NCBI GenBank assembly: GCA_947258655.1
Contig: CAMYJD010000029.1
Span: 1 to 41,855, forward strand
Source: an uncultured Gammaproteobacteria bacterium
GTDB taxonomy: Bacteria; Pseudomonadota; Gammaproteobacteria; JAADHQ01
DNA length: 41,855 nt
Reading direction: 5' to 3'
Shown here in pieces: positions 23,807 to 33,504 of the stretch (within the stretch, counting starts at the first letter, position 1; every line of letters starts with the position of its first letter). The translations under genes and the position numbers were made by a program. Below the pieces are notes generated by a model. The model was not told the origin of the DNA and did no database searches. It worked only from the letters and a program-made list of their open reading frames with translations.

Positions 23807-24754
23807 ATGTCCCATTTATTCAAGCGGATTGTGTCTACATGCCTGCTGATTGCGAGTGTTGCCTTGCATGGCTGCTCAGGTTTGAGTACGAAAGCGGAAT
23901 CTACCTATATCCCGGCCAGCGTATTTCGTGATGATGTGAAAAATGTTTTGAATAGTTATGGTAATGAGGACATCCTGGAACACAGCATTTTCCGTCCGCA
24001 ATTTCTGAGTTATCTCGATACCATCAACCATGAAAAGGGCCCCATCGATATTCAGCGCTTACAACAGGCCATTGCTACATGGAATGCGGTCATGTCAGAA
24101 AGTAATGCACATATAGTCTTCAAGCCACTGCATTTTGAACGCCTGGCAGGCCTGTCTGATGAAAACGGTGACTGCAATACAATAAAATTCTGCCAAATCA
24201 CGGCTGAAGATCTTGAGCAAATCCGCACATGGAGTCACCTGTACCAAGATGATCTCTTTACATTTGAAGAGGATTCCGAGTACGAGTCATTTTATGATAC
24301 CTCTATCATCAGCAGCGTGGATTCCAACAGTACAGAACTCAACAAACTGTTACGACGTATTTATAAAGATCCAGTGGGTAGAAACCTGATCGAACATTGT
24401 ATTGCCACTGGAGTTAAATTCCGGGTCAGGGAACTCGAAGGAAAACATGGATACTATCAGCACAGTAATAATGTCATCGTTATTGATCCAAAGATTTTGT
24501 CCTATGAGTTCAATATGCGTTACATGATTCATGAGATGGTCCATGCGGTCCATGATGAAAGTAACAACTCGATTCAGGAAGAGGTGCTGGCTGAGCTGAT
24601 CGGCCTCGACACACAGAACCGCATTACAGGCATTCCAATGGAATTACACCCCTACGCTGTTTTTGTGCAGCATATTCTGCACCCGGATTACGGCAGGCTT
24701 GCGGTCTCGAATAATATTAAACAGAGTCTGAATAAAGTCGGTCTGGAGCTGTAA
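23807..24754 (+). CDS. Putative zinc-metalloprotease lipoprotein (HEXXH)
   Basis: The 315-residue protein has a signal peptide ending in a lipobox-like L20-H-G-C23, so it is probably a lipoprotein. No known family is recognised over its length. A zinc-protease motif H242-E-M-V-H246 sits in RYMIHEMVHAVHDESN, followed by EEVLAELIGLD (258-268), where E258, E259 or E263 could be the third ligand as in gluzincins. The region before it, NNVIVIDPKIL, is a beta-strand pattern common ahead of such helices. It lies behind a 23-bp direct repeat and in front of two small secreted proteins, which might be its substrates or partners (speculative). Confidence 0.65.
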   Translation: MSHLFKRIVSTCLLIASVALHGCSGLSTKAESTYIPASVFRDDVKNVLNSYGNEDILEHSIFRPQFLSYLDTINHEKGPIDIQRLQQAIATWNAVMSESNAHIVFKPLHFERLAGLSDENGDCNTIKFCQITAEDLEQIRTWSHLYQDDLFTFEEDSEYESFYDTSIISSVDSNSTELNKLLRRIYKDPVGRNLIEHCIATGVKFRVRELEGKHGYYQHSNNVIVIDPKILSYEFNMRYMIHEMVHAVHDESNNSIQEEVLAELIGLDTQNRITGIPMELHPYAVFVQHILHPDYGRLAVSNNIKQSLNKVGLEL

Positions 24755-24944: not shown

Positions 24945-25349
24945 ATGAAACGTAAAAATCAAATCACTGGCATTATATGTTCGATGTTCCTGTTCGCAGG
25001 TAGCGCACAGGCATGTTACTACGAGGGTGACCCCGTTTTGACTGCATCGGGTTATGATACGCCTAAGACAAGCTCCAGTAGCAGTTGCTACTATGATGGC
25101 GATCCTGTCATGGAAAAGTCCGGTAACTATGATAGCCCTGCTATATCATATGAGGCAGGTGATTATTATACTGCCGATATGCCAGAAAAGGTCACCCACA
25201 ATGGCTCCGAAGAAAATGCAGAATTTTCTGCTTTTGAGGCTGATTGCGGGGATGCAGACGATTCTGCTATCAATAATGCTAGTGTCGATGCCAACAAGAC
25301 CAACACTAACGATGAGATGGAATGGATCCCGCAAAGCTGGAGCTTTTAA
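24945..25349 (+). CDS. Small secreted CYY-GDPV repeat protein, copy 1 (unknown family)
   Basis: The 134-residue protein starts at the ATG at 24945, behind GGGAGA, and not at the upstream frame opening at 24861. A Sec signal peptide (MKRKNQITGIICSMFLFAGSAQA) precedes the mature N-terminus CYYEGDPV. The mature part begins with two copies of C-Y-Y-x-G-D-P-V-x-x-x-S-G-x-Y-D-x-P, 24 residues apart. An acidic, Asn/Thr-rich region follows, and the protein ends in EWIPQSWSF. Three cysteines remain after cleavage. The A-Q-A-C site is not a good lipobox. I recognise no family or function. It is a paralogue of the next gene. Confidence 0.75.
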   Translation: MKRKNQITGIICSMFLFAGSAQACYYEGDPVLTASGYDTPKTSSSSSCYYDGDPVMEKSGNYDSPAISYEAGDYYTADMPEKVTHNGSEENAEFSAFEADCGDADDSAINNASVDANKTNTNDEMEWIPQSWSF

Positions 25350-25375
25350 GAACCATACTGCGAAGTATAGATCCA

Positions 25376-25410
25376 CATACCCGGTTGATAAATTCTGTTA
25401 ACCGGGTATG
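25376..25410 (+). terminator. 11-bp perfect hairpin after copy 1
   Basis: CATACCCGGTT (25376-25386) pairs perfectly with AACCGGGTATG (25400-25410) around a 13-nt loop. No T tract follows, so it may be a weak terminator or an RNA-stabilising 3' hairpin. A related hairpin sits behind copy 2 (26021-26048). Confidence 0.55.
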
Positions 25411-25585
25411 TCATTACCCTCCTCCGCTGCAGAATTTCCTCCCCGCTATTAACTCTTATTAACAATGTGAATATCACACAAAACTCCGGTAAATGCTCTC
25501 ACAGTAATTATTGACAACATGCATGATGATATCACTGTGCAATACATAACGATGTATGAAGGTTAATCATCCGAGGAGAAATAAA

Positions 25586-25993
25586 ATGAACATATATACT
25601 ATGGCTAGAGGAATAATCACTACATTCTGCTTACTTGCGGTTTCTGCTTTTGCTCAGGCATGTTACTACGAAGGTGATCCTGTATTAACACCATCGGGTT
25701 ATGATGTGCCGGTTACAAGTACCGATAGCGACTGCTACTATGGAGGTGATCCGGTAATGGAAAAATCGGGCCAATATGACACCCCGATAACACTGGCCGA
25801 GGGAAGCTATTACTACACAGCAGATCTGCAGGAAGGCATAAGCTACAGCGATAATTCAATAGAAATGACCGACTTTTCTGCATTCGAGCATGAAGCCGAC
25901 ACTGAAACCACAGGCGTGGTTGAAGTAACAGCAGCGCAACGTGATCTCGGCGATCATGAATGGTTGCCACAGGCCTGGACTCGTACATATTGA
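25586..25993 (+). CDS. Small secreted CYY-GDPV repeat protein, copy 2 (unknown family)
   Basis: The 135-residue protein starts at the ATG at 25586, with GAGGAG 8 nt upstream; the earlier in-frame start at 25556 lacks this site. A signal peptide ends in AFAQA before CYYEGDPVLTPSGYD. The second repeat unit is CYYGGDPVMEKSGQYDTP. YYYTADL, DFSAFE and the C-terminal EWLPQAW are shared with copy 1. Only two cysteines remain after cleavage, one in each repeat. Identity to copy 1 is highest over the first 45 mature residues and the C-terminus, and poor in the acidic linker, as expected when the repeats and tail carry the function. Function unknown. Confidence 0.75.
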   Translation: MNIYTMARGIITTFCLLAVSAFAQACYYEGDPVLTPSGYDVPVTSTDSDCYYGGDPVMEKSGQYDTPITLAEGSYYYTADLQEGISYSDNSIEMTDFSAFEHEADTETTGVVEVTAAQRDLGDHEWLPQAWTRTY

Positions 25994-26020
25994 TCCTTGT
26001 CTGTATGGAAGGAAAATACC

Positions 26021-26048
26021 CCCGGTTGATGCTTTTCGTTCAGCCGGG
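26021..26048 (+). terminator. 9-bp hairpin after copy 2
   Basis: CCCGGTTGA (26021-26029) pairs with TCAGCCGGG (26040-26048) with one T-G wobble around a 10-nt loop. Its CCCGGTTGAT left arm also occurs in the hairpin behind copy 1, suggesting that the duplicated unit included the 3' region. No T tract follows. Confidence 0.45.
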
Positions 26049-30134: not shown

Positions 30135-31787
30135 ATGAGTATTTCCTGTTCTACATCAAGAAGACCTCTTACATTATTGTTTCTACTTTATTTTATACTA
30201 TTCAGTAATTACATATTTGCAAGTGAACAACAGGAAACCAGCGATCCTGCACAGATCCTGGTCGGTGAACGGCTGTTCCTCGAGATACGGTTCGCCCAGT
30301 CCTATTACAGCAATCCAGACAAGCCTGACCCGGTATTGAGCTCCACAAAAACAACCGCAACTGACCTGCCGGGGGCATTTGCGGGTCAGCATATGAACTG
30401 CCGTGCTTGTCATATGGTGGATGAGCATGCTGACAATACAGCGGCGGGTATGCGCAGCTATGCAGATTTCGCCCGCCGCCCGCCAATACCGATGCGCGCA
30501 GATGGCAGGATGAATGCACCCAGAAACTCACAGCAACTGGTCAATATAGCGATAGCAAATGACGCCGGGCTGGCATTCCATTTTGACGGTCAGTTCGCGA
30601 CGATGGAGGCCCTGGTCAAGGCGACATTAACGGGCAGAAACTATGGCTGGCTGGCGCATGAACAGCAACAGGCGATAAAACATATTGCTGATGTCATCCG
30701 TAGTGATACGGACAAGGGTGAACTGGCGCGTGAATCGGGGGGTGATTACAGGACCCTGTTGCAAGGAACATCCGCGCGTATACCTGCCGATTTCCGCCTG
30801 GCGCAACCCTACCGAATTAATGTCGATCAGGCCTCAGACAGCGAGATTGTCGATGCAATCGCGAGGCTGATTGCCGCCTATGTCAACGACCTGGCATTCT
30901 CACGCGACGCTGACGGCCTCTACGACGGTTCTCCATATGACCAGTTCCTGATCAAGAACGGCTTGCCGCGCAAGCCCGCCAAGGGACAAACAGCCATCGA
31001 ATACAGCCGCAAGCTGCTCGTTGCTTTGAAGCAGTTAAAAAAGCCGGAATATATCAGCGCTTCGACCCGCTTCGACACGCATCAACAGGAATTTAAGTTT
31101 GGCCCAGCGGAACTTGCAGGCCTGAAAATATTTCTGCGTGAAGCCGCAGTAAACAATCAGCGTGTCGGTAACTGTATCAGCTGTCATGCAGCCCCCGACT
31201 TCACCGATTTCAACTTTCATAACACTGGAGTCAGTCAAATCGAATATGATGCAATTCACGGGAATAACAAATTTGCATCGCTGCACATCCCGTCTTTGTC
31301 CGAGCGCAATGCTAGTCATAACGATTTTCTACCACCTACGATGAAACACCCACAGGCAAGCGGCCGTTTTATCGCCATCCCGACAAAACAACAGCCCGGG
31401 CGGACCGACCTCGGCCTGTGGAATGTATTCGCCAATCCCGACGAACCAGCGCAGCAACAACATTTATCCGACCTGGTATGCAGCATGGTCAGTAAACAAG
31501 GCGGATTAAGCCGGGACAAATGTTCAGTTGAGCAACTGTTGCCGTACACCGTAGCCCGCTTCAAAACACCCGGCATTCGGGATCTCGGTCATTCAGCACC
31601 GTATATGCATAATGGCATGTTTGATACGCTCGAGGCCGTACTCGCGCATTACATGCAAGTATCCACACTGGCACGTGCCGGCAAGGTTCTGAATGCAGCC
31701 CCGGAATTAAGCGCTATGTATCTGCAGGCAGAGGATATCAGCATGCTGGCCGCATTCCTCAGAGCCTTGAATGAGGACTACGATTAA
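30135..31787 (+). CDS. Di-haem cytochrome c peroxidase / MauG-like protein, periplasmic
   Basis: The 550-residue protein has a signal peptide (about 1-29) and two c-type haem sites, C89-RA-C92-H93 and C347-IS-C350-H351. The wide spacing between them and the C-terminal PYMHNGMFDTLEAVLAHY place it in the cytochrome c peroxidase/MauG superfamily. It is longer than classical CcpA-type peroxidases (about 330-350) because of an extended inter-haem region and an insert after the second haem. Whether it is a peroxidase or a MauG-like oxidase cannot be decided here. The Fur box upstream indicates induction under iron limitation. No clear ribosome-binding site lies close to the ATG; GAGG is about 16 nt away. 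Confidence 0.85.
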   Translation: MSISCSTSRRPLTLLFLLYFILFSNYIFASEQQETSDPAQILVGERLFLEIRFAQSYYSNPDKPDPVLSSTKTTATDLPGAFAGQHMNCRACHMVDEHADNTAAGMRSYADFARRPPIPMRADGRMNAPRNSQQLVNIAIANDAGLAFHFDGQFATMEALVKATLTGRNYGWLAHEQQQAIKHIADVIRSDTDKGELARESGGDYRTLLQGTSARIPADFRLAQPYRINVDQASDSEIVDAIARLIAAYVNDLAFSRDADGLYDGSPYDQFLIKNGLPRKPAKGQTAIEYSRKLLVALKQLKKPEYISASTRFDTHQQEFKFGPAELAGLKIFLREAAVNNQRVGNCISCHAAPDFTDFNFHNTGVSQIEYDAIHGNNKFASLHIPSLSERNASHNDFLPPTMKHPQASGRFIAIPTKQQPGRTDLGLWNVFANPDEPAQQQHLSDLVCSMVSKQGGLSRDKCSVEQLLPYTVARFKTPGIRDLGHSAPYMHNGMFDTLEAVLAHYMQVSTLARAGKVLNAAPELSAMYLQAEDISMLAAFLRALNEDYD

Positions 31788-31889
31788 TTTGTAATAGATC
31801 AGACTCGAACTGACAGTATCTAAAAGAATTTAATGTCTTCAGTCACACTGTAGCAGTCGTTCAGATATTCAGGGTGCCAGGCAGAAAGC

Positions 31890-33504
31890 GGCCGAGGCTG
31901 TGTGAAAACCCTATTCGAGGTATAATTAGGTAACTGGAATAAGGAGATCATTCTATGAGTGGGTTTATCGAGGGAGAAGACCGCAGTCAGGCTACATTAT
32001 TTCCGGAACGGCTTGATGATTACATAGAAGAAAACAGTGCTGTACGTGTCATCGACGTATTTATTGATGAACTTGATATCTCAGGCCTGGGATTTAAAAC
32101 TGAATCGAGTAACACGGGCCGCCCCGCCTATCATCCGACCACTTTATTAAAGATCTATGTCTACGGTTATCTTAACCAGGTGCACTCCAGCCGTCGTTTG
32201 GAACGGGAAGCACAGCGTAACGTAGAGCTGATGTGGCTCACGGGGCGCTTAGCACCGGACTTTAAAACCATAGCCGATTTTCGTAAAGATAATGGTGAAG
32301 CAATCCGATTGGTCTGTCGCGAATTCGTTATGCTATGTCGTAAACTTAACTTGTTTGCAGACGCCTTTGTCGCCATTGATGGCAGCAAGTTCAAAGCAGT
32401 CAATAATCGTGACCGTAATTTTACACGTGCAAAAATGAAGAGGAGACTAGCAGAGGTCGACGAGAGCATTGATCGATACCTAAAACAAATGGCCAGTTCT
32501 GATCGACAAGAACCCTCAGAAGACAAGACACAGCGACTCGAAGATAAGGAACAACTTTCTCTCACTGACCCTGATGCACGCTCGATGAAATGCAGGGGTT
32601 CAGGCATAGTCGGATACAACGTGCAAACAGCGGTTGATGTACGTCATCATCTCATCGTCGCACATGAAGTGACAAACAATGGTTCTGACCGTCGTCAATT
32701 AACGAATATGGCAAAACAGGCTCAGTCAATTATAGGCTCCAAAGAAACACTAAAAGTCGTTGCTGACCGTGGTTATTACCGCAGCCATGAGTTTTTAGAC
32801 TGCGATAGAGCGAATATTATTACTTACGTTCCGAGACCAGACACTTCGAACAATAAGGCCAGGGGTCAGTTTGGTCCAGATGACTTTCGTTATATTGAAA
32901 AAGATGATCAGTACGAATGCCCAGGTGGGCGGCGCTTGGATTTTCGTACTACCATGCATTCCAAGGGAATGACTCTGCATCGTTACTGGGCGAAAGACTG
33001 TCAATCATGCGCTATAAAATCAAAGTGCACGACGGGTAAAGAGCGACGAGTGTCACGATGGGAGCATGAGGAGATTCTTGAATCAGTTCAAATGCGATTA
33101 ACCAATGATCAAAGTAAAATGCGTGAAAGACGTGCCACAGTCGAACATCCTTTTGGCACGCTGAAGTACTGGATGGGAGCTACACACTTCCTAACGAGAT
33201 CACTTGATCGTGTAAGTACTGAAATGAGTCTTCACATTCTTGCTTATAATTTGAAGCGGGTCATTAAAATTGTTGGTATCAAACCTCTGATTAAGGCTAT
33301 ACAAGTGTAAGAGCTTTACACTTGTATAAATGCCCGAGATATGAGCGCTGCACAGGCTGATTACAAAGTATTTATTTATGCCGACTAATATTATATTGGA
33401 ACTGGGATTATCGAGAATGGCTTGTGAGAACGCTTCAGAATGAGTGCTATGCCAATTATTGGCTTTTCAAGATCATAGGTTCATGTTTTCACACAGCCTC
33501 GGCC
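31890..33504 (+). mobile_element. IS1182-family insertion sequence, apparently complete
   Basis: Perfect 20-bp terminal inverted repeats bound the element: GGCCGAGGCTGTGTGAAAAC at 31890-31909 and its complement at 33485-33504. The transposase is intact. The five bases AAAGC precede the left end (31885-31889) and recur at 33506-33510, a possible short target duplication, though one base is ambiguous. Total length is about 1.6 kb. The right end abuts dispersed intergenic repeats. Confidence 0.88.
31955..33310 (+). CDS. IS1182-family transposase
   Basis: The 451-residue DDE transposase has the N-terminal DUF772-type domain (RPAYHPTTLLKIYVYGYLN) and the catalytic aspartates D142 (AIDGSKFKAV) and D271 (VVADRGYY). 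The glutamate is E397 in RRATVEHPFGTLKYWMG. A cysteine cluster (about 350-358) lies before the last motif, as in this family. AAGGAG about 10 nt before the ATG provides the ribosome binding site. The frame is intact, so the element may be active. Confidence 0.95.
   Translation: MSGFIEGEDRSQATLFPERLDDYIEENSAVRVIDVFIDELDISGLGFKTESSNTGRPAYHPTTLLKIYVYGYLNQVHSSRRLEREAQRNVELMWLTGRLAPDFKTIADFRKDNGEAIRLVCREFVMLCRKLNLFADAFVAIDGSKFKAVNNRDRNFTRAKMKRRLAEVDESIDRYLKQMASSDRQEPSEDKTQRLEDKEQLSLTDPDARSMKCRGSGIVGYNVQTAVDVRHHLIVAHEVTNNGSDRRQLTNMAKQAQSIIGSKETLKVVADRGYYRSHEFLDCDRANIITYVPRPDTSNNKARGQFGPDDFRYIEKDDQYECPGGRRLDFRTTMHSKGMTLHRYWAKDCQSCAIKSKCTTGKERRVSRWEHEEILESVQMRLTNDQSKMRERRATVEHPFGTLKYWMGATHFLTRSLDRVSTEMSLHILAYNLKRVIKIVGIKPLIKAIQV

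Follow-up and report, generated by a model that had tools for sequence, protein, structure and literature searches.

A patchily distributed orphan family of exported proteins with a repeated CYYxGDPV motif in Gammaproteobacteria

Two adjacent genes and their products

The window studied here is a stretch of 41,855 nucleotides (contig CAMYJD010000029.1, positions 1 to 41,855) from a gammaproteobacterial MAG of 3.5 Mb. It carries two adjacent genes, called A and B below, whose products had been described in the original prediction as exported paralogues of 134 and 135 residues, each with two repeats, an acidic linker and a shared tail. The translations bear this description out (Table 1). In both proteins, the CYYxGDPV...SGxYDxP repeat comes twice after a predicted Sec-type signal peptide, with an acidic, variable linker leading to the tail EW[IL]PQ[AS]W, and the ATG of each gene is preceded by a purine-rich stretch that resembles a Shine-Dalgarno sequence. 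Motif 1 reads CYYEGDPV in A and B and stands right after ...AQA, and motif 2, CYY[DG]GDPV, starts 24 residues further on. At the DNA level, a degenerate motif encoding CYYxGDPV is present at four places in the window and absent from 100 dinucleotide shuffles. The mature chains are acidic, with 23 Asp/Glu versus 4 Lys/Arg in A and 22 versus 3 in B.

Table 1. Features of the A/B locus (window coordinates)
Feature	Position	Strand	Basis or remark
Predicted lipoprotein zinc metallopeptidase (HExxH...E), upstream neighbour	23807..24754	+	Genomic context only; link not obligate
Gene A, 134-aa exported repeat protein	24945..25349	+	ORF translation; orthologue in L011
Predicted signal peptide of A, 23 aa, ...SAQA/CYY, signal peptidase I type, no canonical lipobox	24945..25013	+	Sequence; hydrophobic core, residues -4 to +1
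A repeat 1, CYYEGDPVLTASGYDTP (CYYEGDPVLTASG-YDTP)	25014..25064	+	Translation; DNA motif count
A repeat 2, CYYDGDPVMEKSGNYDSP	25086..25139	+	Translation; DNA motif count
A putative degenerate third unit, DYYTADMPEK, Cys lost	25161..25190	+	Alignment register with G286; weak alone
A tail, EWIPQSW	25320..25340	+	Translation; not in L011 or G286 relatives
Terminator-like hairpin 3' of gene A, CCCGGTTGAT...AACCGGG, no long T run	25380..25406	+	Fold z -6.9
Gene B, 135-aa exported repeat protein	25586..25993	+	ORF translation
Predicted signal peptide of B, 25 aa, ...FAQA/CYY	25586..25660	+	Sequence
B repeat 1, CYYEGDPVLTPSGYDVP (CYYEGDPVLTPSG-YDVP)	25661..25711	+	Translation; DNA motif count
B repeat 2, CYYGGDPVMEKSGQYDTP	25733..25786	+	Translation; DNA motif count
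B putative degenerate third unit, YYYTADLQEG	25808..25837	+	Alignment register with G286; weak alone
B tail, EWLPQAW	25958..25978	+	Translation
Hairpin 3' of gene B, paralogous to the gene A hairpin	26021..26047	+	Fold z -2.25

Because a related hairpin follows each gene, A and B seem to be transcribed separately and to have been duplicated along with a terminator-like element. The orthologue described below has an equivalent hairpin behind it, in that case with a T run.

Relatives and distribution

Three congeners of the window genome (G000) were available in the collection, namely G001, G002 and G003. G003 (CAMYJO010000014.1, isolate ES_Gamma_034) encodes one orthologue of 116 residues at the same locus (L011), flanked by the metallopeptidase gene on one side and the ABC transporter genes on the other, as in the window. 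The repeat gene is missing from G001 and G002, though both have the metallopeptidase gene. Outside the genus, G286, which belongs to another family of Gammaproteobacteria, encodes two 96-residue relatives in which the CYYxGDPV motifs are again spaced by exactly 24 residues from start to start. Homologues that share the repeat, for which the original prediction had proposed a search, are thereby at hand in two further genomes, and A and B are paralogues in a rare family whose members are small, acidic, exported repeat proteins.

How rare is the family? When 369 class genomes were scanned, first for the CYYxGDPV pattern and then with a profile, G286 was the sole further carrier (the reversed-pattern control gave 0 matches), and profile searches of 361 completeness-filtered class genomes, a set overlapping the 369, and of 398 phylum genomes uncovered no other. 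The family is present in 2 of the 271 class genera sampled. A strict peptide scan of 84,980 genomes used patterns that do not match the G286 proteins, and the extent of the family is therefore not bounded by it. Phage and plasmid records contained no relative of the repeat proteins, and the five matches in viral contigs, which we ascribe to chance, each have a single motif and never two copies; one lies antisense to another gene. A literature search on the CYYxGDPV motif found nothing.

The two G286 copies (L026:8155-8445 and L027:7921-8211) each adjoin a 100-N scaffold gap. Over the compared bases, the two are identical in the first 86 and in roughly the last 120 positions, and 35 differences fall in between; all 10 replaced residues lie outside the fixed motif positions. 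This could be a tandem pair that the assembly broke in two; alternatively, part of the pattern could stem from the assembly itself.

Conserved core, third unit and tail

Constant across the five mature proteins are two copies of C-Y-Y-x-G-D-P-V, 24 residues apart, and a few later positions. The only cysteines conserved throughout are the two that head the motifs, and although the spacers have diverged, A, B, the G003 orthologue and both G286 proteins all retain 24 residues from one motif start to the next. The SGxYDxP half, which the original prediction had included in the core, holds within the window genus and is lost in G286, and the core of the wider family is for that reason CYYxGDPV only.

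Comparison of A with the G003 orthologue revealed no nonsynonymous difference in the 16 motif codons (0 in 38.7 sites) versus eight synonymous differences in 9.3 sites. Considering that no amino acid has changed while synonymous sites are near saturation, the motif is under strong constraint, and it is the constrained part of the protein. Over the first two repeats as a whole, dN/dS is near 0.1, with a dS that is high and imprecise, and the distal linker evolves fast (dN 1.23, dS 1.86). The earlier proposal that selection acts on both repeats and tail therefore stands for the repeats and is not supported for the tail, since EW[IL]PQ[AS]W is confined to A and B among the five family members. 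Past the stop codon of the G003 orthologue, the in-frame codons at L011:8351-8390 read VCSDWIKIYSYF, with a weak resemblance to the A and B tails (54 of 3000 shuffles score as high).

Alignment in register with G286 points to a degenerate third repeat that the first reading of the sequence had missed, located 24-25 residues past motif 2, i.e. at 48-49 residues. The equivalent segment is AVYEGDPEYC in G286, and EYYTADMPEK is a further form from the window genus. This candidate unit is clear in the G286 proteins, where its score is reached by 3 and 6 of 1000 shuffles, and weak in A and B; taken alone in A, B and the G003 orthologue, it does not rise above shuffles (164-241 of 1000 reach the score).

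Family libraries and predicted structure

Searches of Pfam, NCBIfam, PHROG, PADLOC and PDB sequences found no family relative, in agreement with the original prediction, which recognised no family. The one match considered, between residues 68-119 of A and the bacterial Ig domain Big_8 (PF17961), has an E-value of 0.029 and 14.9 bits, below the 22.9-bit cut-off. We took it as chance: it involves one of five members, falls in the variable linker, and is not accompanied by an Ig-like AlphaFold2 model. Structure prediction, also proposed earlier, was unrewarding, with AlphaFold2 on the five-sequence alignment giving no confident fold (mean pLDDT 44 and 45). The low values fit disorder, but the shallow alignment may also be their cause.

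In all five proteins, the N-terminal segment is hydrophobic and CYY comes directly after what resembles a cleavage site. The junctions are AQAC in A and B, AHAC in the G003 orthologue and NAGC in the G286 proteins, and with no aliphatic residue at -3 they do not match the lipobox [LVI][ASTVI][GAS]C. Orphan proteins that are small, exported and built from short tandem repeats are, as a general kind, alike in signal peptide, repeats, patchy distribution and lack of a fold prediction; unlike these, the present proteins have a strict 24-residue register and two invariant cysteines common to two separate lineages. We conclude that they form a new orphan family of exported repeat proteins, uncatalogued in the libraries searched and patchy over two lineages.

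Genomic neighbourhood

Relatives of the metallopeptidase encoded upstream of A are found at L011:6888-7838, L014:1450-2400, L015:1495-2442 and L046:1498-2454, so that the protein is known from the four congeners and G047. Its HExxH and E residues are invariant in the four congeners, and against Pfam it has only a sub-threshold match, to DUF6782. As a partner of the repeat genes it was rejected, being present in G001 and G002, which have no repeat gene, and in G047, and absent from the repeat-carrying G286. In G002, a different small exported protein of 81 residues with two cysteines is encoded just upstream of the metallopeptidase gene (L015:2626-2871).

The window and G286 loci have no neighbour gene in common, and no metal-homeostasis gene lies beside any copy. 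A TlpA-type thioredoxin gene is located just upstream of one G286 copy, but not at the other G286 copy or the window copies. The adjoining ABC transporter is a LolCDE/MacB-like pair, which we regard as ordinary flanking genes. Further downstream, positions 30135-33310, between TesA-like and DUF2797-like genes, encode a di-heme peroxidase and an IS-type transposase; both genes are missing from the equivalent place in L011. The di-heme peroxidase (30135-31787) was considered as a maturase and discarded, since neither G003 nor G286 nor the other congeners gave a match.

Possible functions

What might these proteins do? The explanation that we favour, tentatively and with somewhat less than even confidence, is that each is an exported, largely disordered acidic peptide in which the two cysteine motifs, held at a fixed distance, make up one joint site, either a disulfide-closed loop or a metal-binding pair. 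The protein would be exported by Sec and cut by signal peptidase I just before the first cysteine, and the mature chain would be largely disordered in isolation. The invariant cysteines, their spacing and the constraint on the motif suggest that the two cysteines act as one unit. They could form a disulfide with each other and thus an oxidised loop, or they could, with neighbouring Asp and Tyr residues, coordinate a metal ion, or some other cation, in the periplasm or extracellularly; the linker and tail would serve as a variable spacer. The kept 24-residue spacing favours a fixed pairing over independent beads. It is nonetheless weak evidence for a joint site, coming from five sequences in two lineages. 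The lack of a metal-homeostasis gene beside any copy and the third cysteine in A and in the G286 proteins count against the proposal. The near-invariant octapeptide, with its fixed spacing in two lineages and no catalogued family, is a candidate exported Cys/Asp/Tyr site of a new and compact kind. If metal binding or modification proves true, the family would be a new sequence class among exported metal-handling peptides, and if neither does, it is still an orphan family worth cataloguing. A bolder view, in which the repeated CYYxGDPV cores, modified or cyclised, would be the active part of a new class of exported metal-binding or signalling peptide, sparse across distant Gammaproteobacteria, strikes us as unlikely.

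Perhaps the joint site is the wrong picture and the CYYxGDPV segments are excised after export, possibly by a secreted protease such as the neighbouring metallopeptidase, to act as signals or antagonistic peptides. A near-invariant octapeptide among divergent spacers, a signal peptide right before copy 1, tandem genes, the identical ends and differing middles of the G286 copies, and the metallopeptidase gene directly upstream in the window and L011 would all suit such a precursor. We nevertheless think it unlikely, given that peptidase and repeats occur without each other, as indicated above, that no transporter, receptor or immunity gene is obviously paired with the repeats beside the copies, and that free cores would not need an exact 24-residue spacing. 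The many tyrosines (7-11 per 69-111 mature residues), together with disorder-like models and predicted export, are consistent instead with a protein of the surface or matrix that is crosslinked, through its tyrosine pairs and cysteines, to itself or to the envelope; but the chains are very short, with only two to three repeats, the nearby peroxidase is unmatched in the other carriers and congeners, and we hold this to be improbable. The very patchy distribution, including the two congeners that have no copy, could even mean that the gene is specific to a lineage, evolves fast and is dispensable, having been kept by chance or drift. Against this stand the strong constraint on the motif, where amino acids are kept although synonymous sites are near saturation, and its conservation across taxonomic families; we consider this option the least probable of the alternatives.

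The remaining alternative retains a metal-binding peptide but has it modified by an enzyme encoded elsewhere, for example an MNIO acting on cysteine as in bufferins. Bufferin precursors have Sec signal peptides and modified cysteines, and precursor genes apart from MNIO genes have been reported (PMC12452194). The repeat proteins resemble bufferins and the Buf_EGKCG oxazolins described there in being small Sec-exported proteins (predicted here from sequence and hydrophobic core) with short cysteine motifs, which are repeated in the EGKCG group. Moreover, MNIO genes are found in all five genomes examined. These include the congeners without repeats, however, and most of the genes adjoin their own Cys-rich precursor and a DUF2063-type partner in bufferin-like operons. 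Around the copies of the repeat genes, neither an MNIO nor a radical SAM gene was recognised, and no DUF2063-type gene adjoins them. The proteins also differ from bufferins in being acidic and in having CYYxGDPV in place of EGKCG, and the Buf1 (DUF2282), Buf2 and EGKCG signatures were found in none of the five members by Pfam, NCBIfam or inspection of the sequences. Considering that MNIO genes are present throughout but show no genetic linkage, we set MNIO modification aside as a candidate, and modification in trans is in our estimate quite improbable. The repeat proteins are explained neither by the metallopeptidase nor by the peroxidase or MNIO enzymes. The joint cysteine site remains our preferred reading. 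As a separate observation, all four congeners encode exported precursors with EGKCG repeats directly before MNIO genes, in oxazolin-like operons (L042:954-1457, L041:2327-2860, L039:1024-1458 and L038:876-1460).
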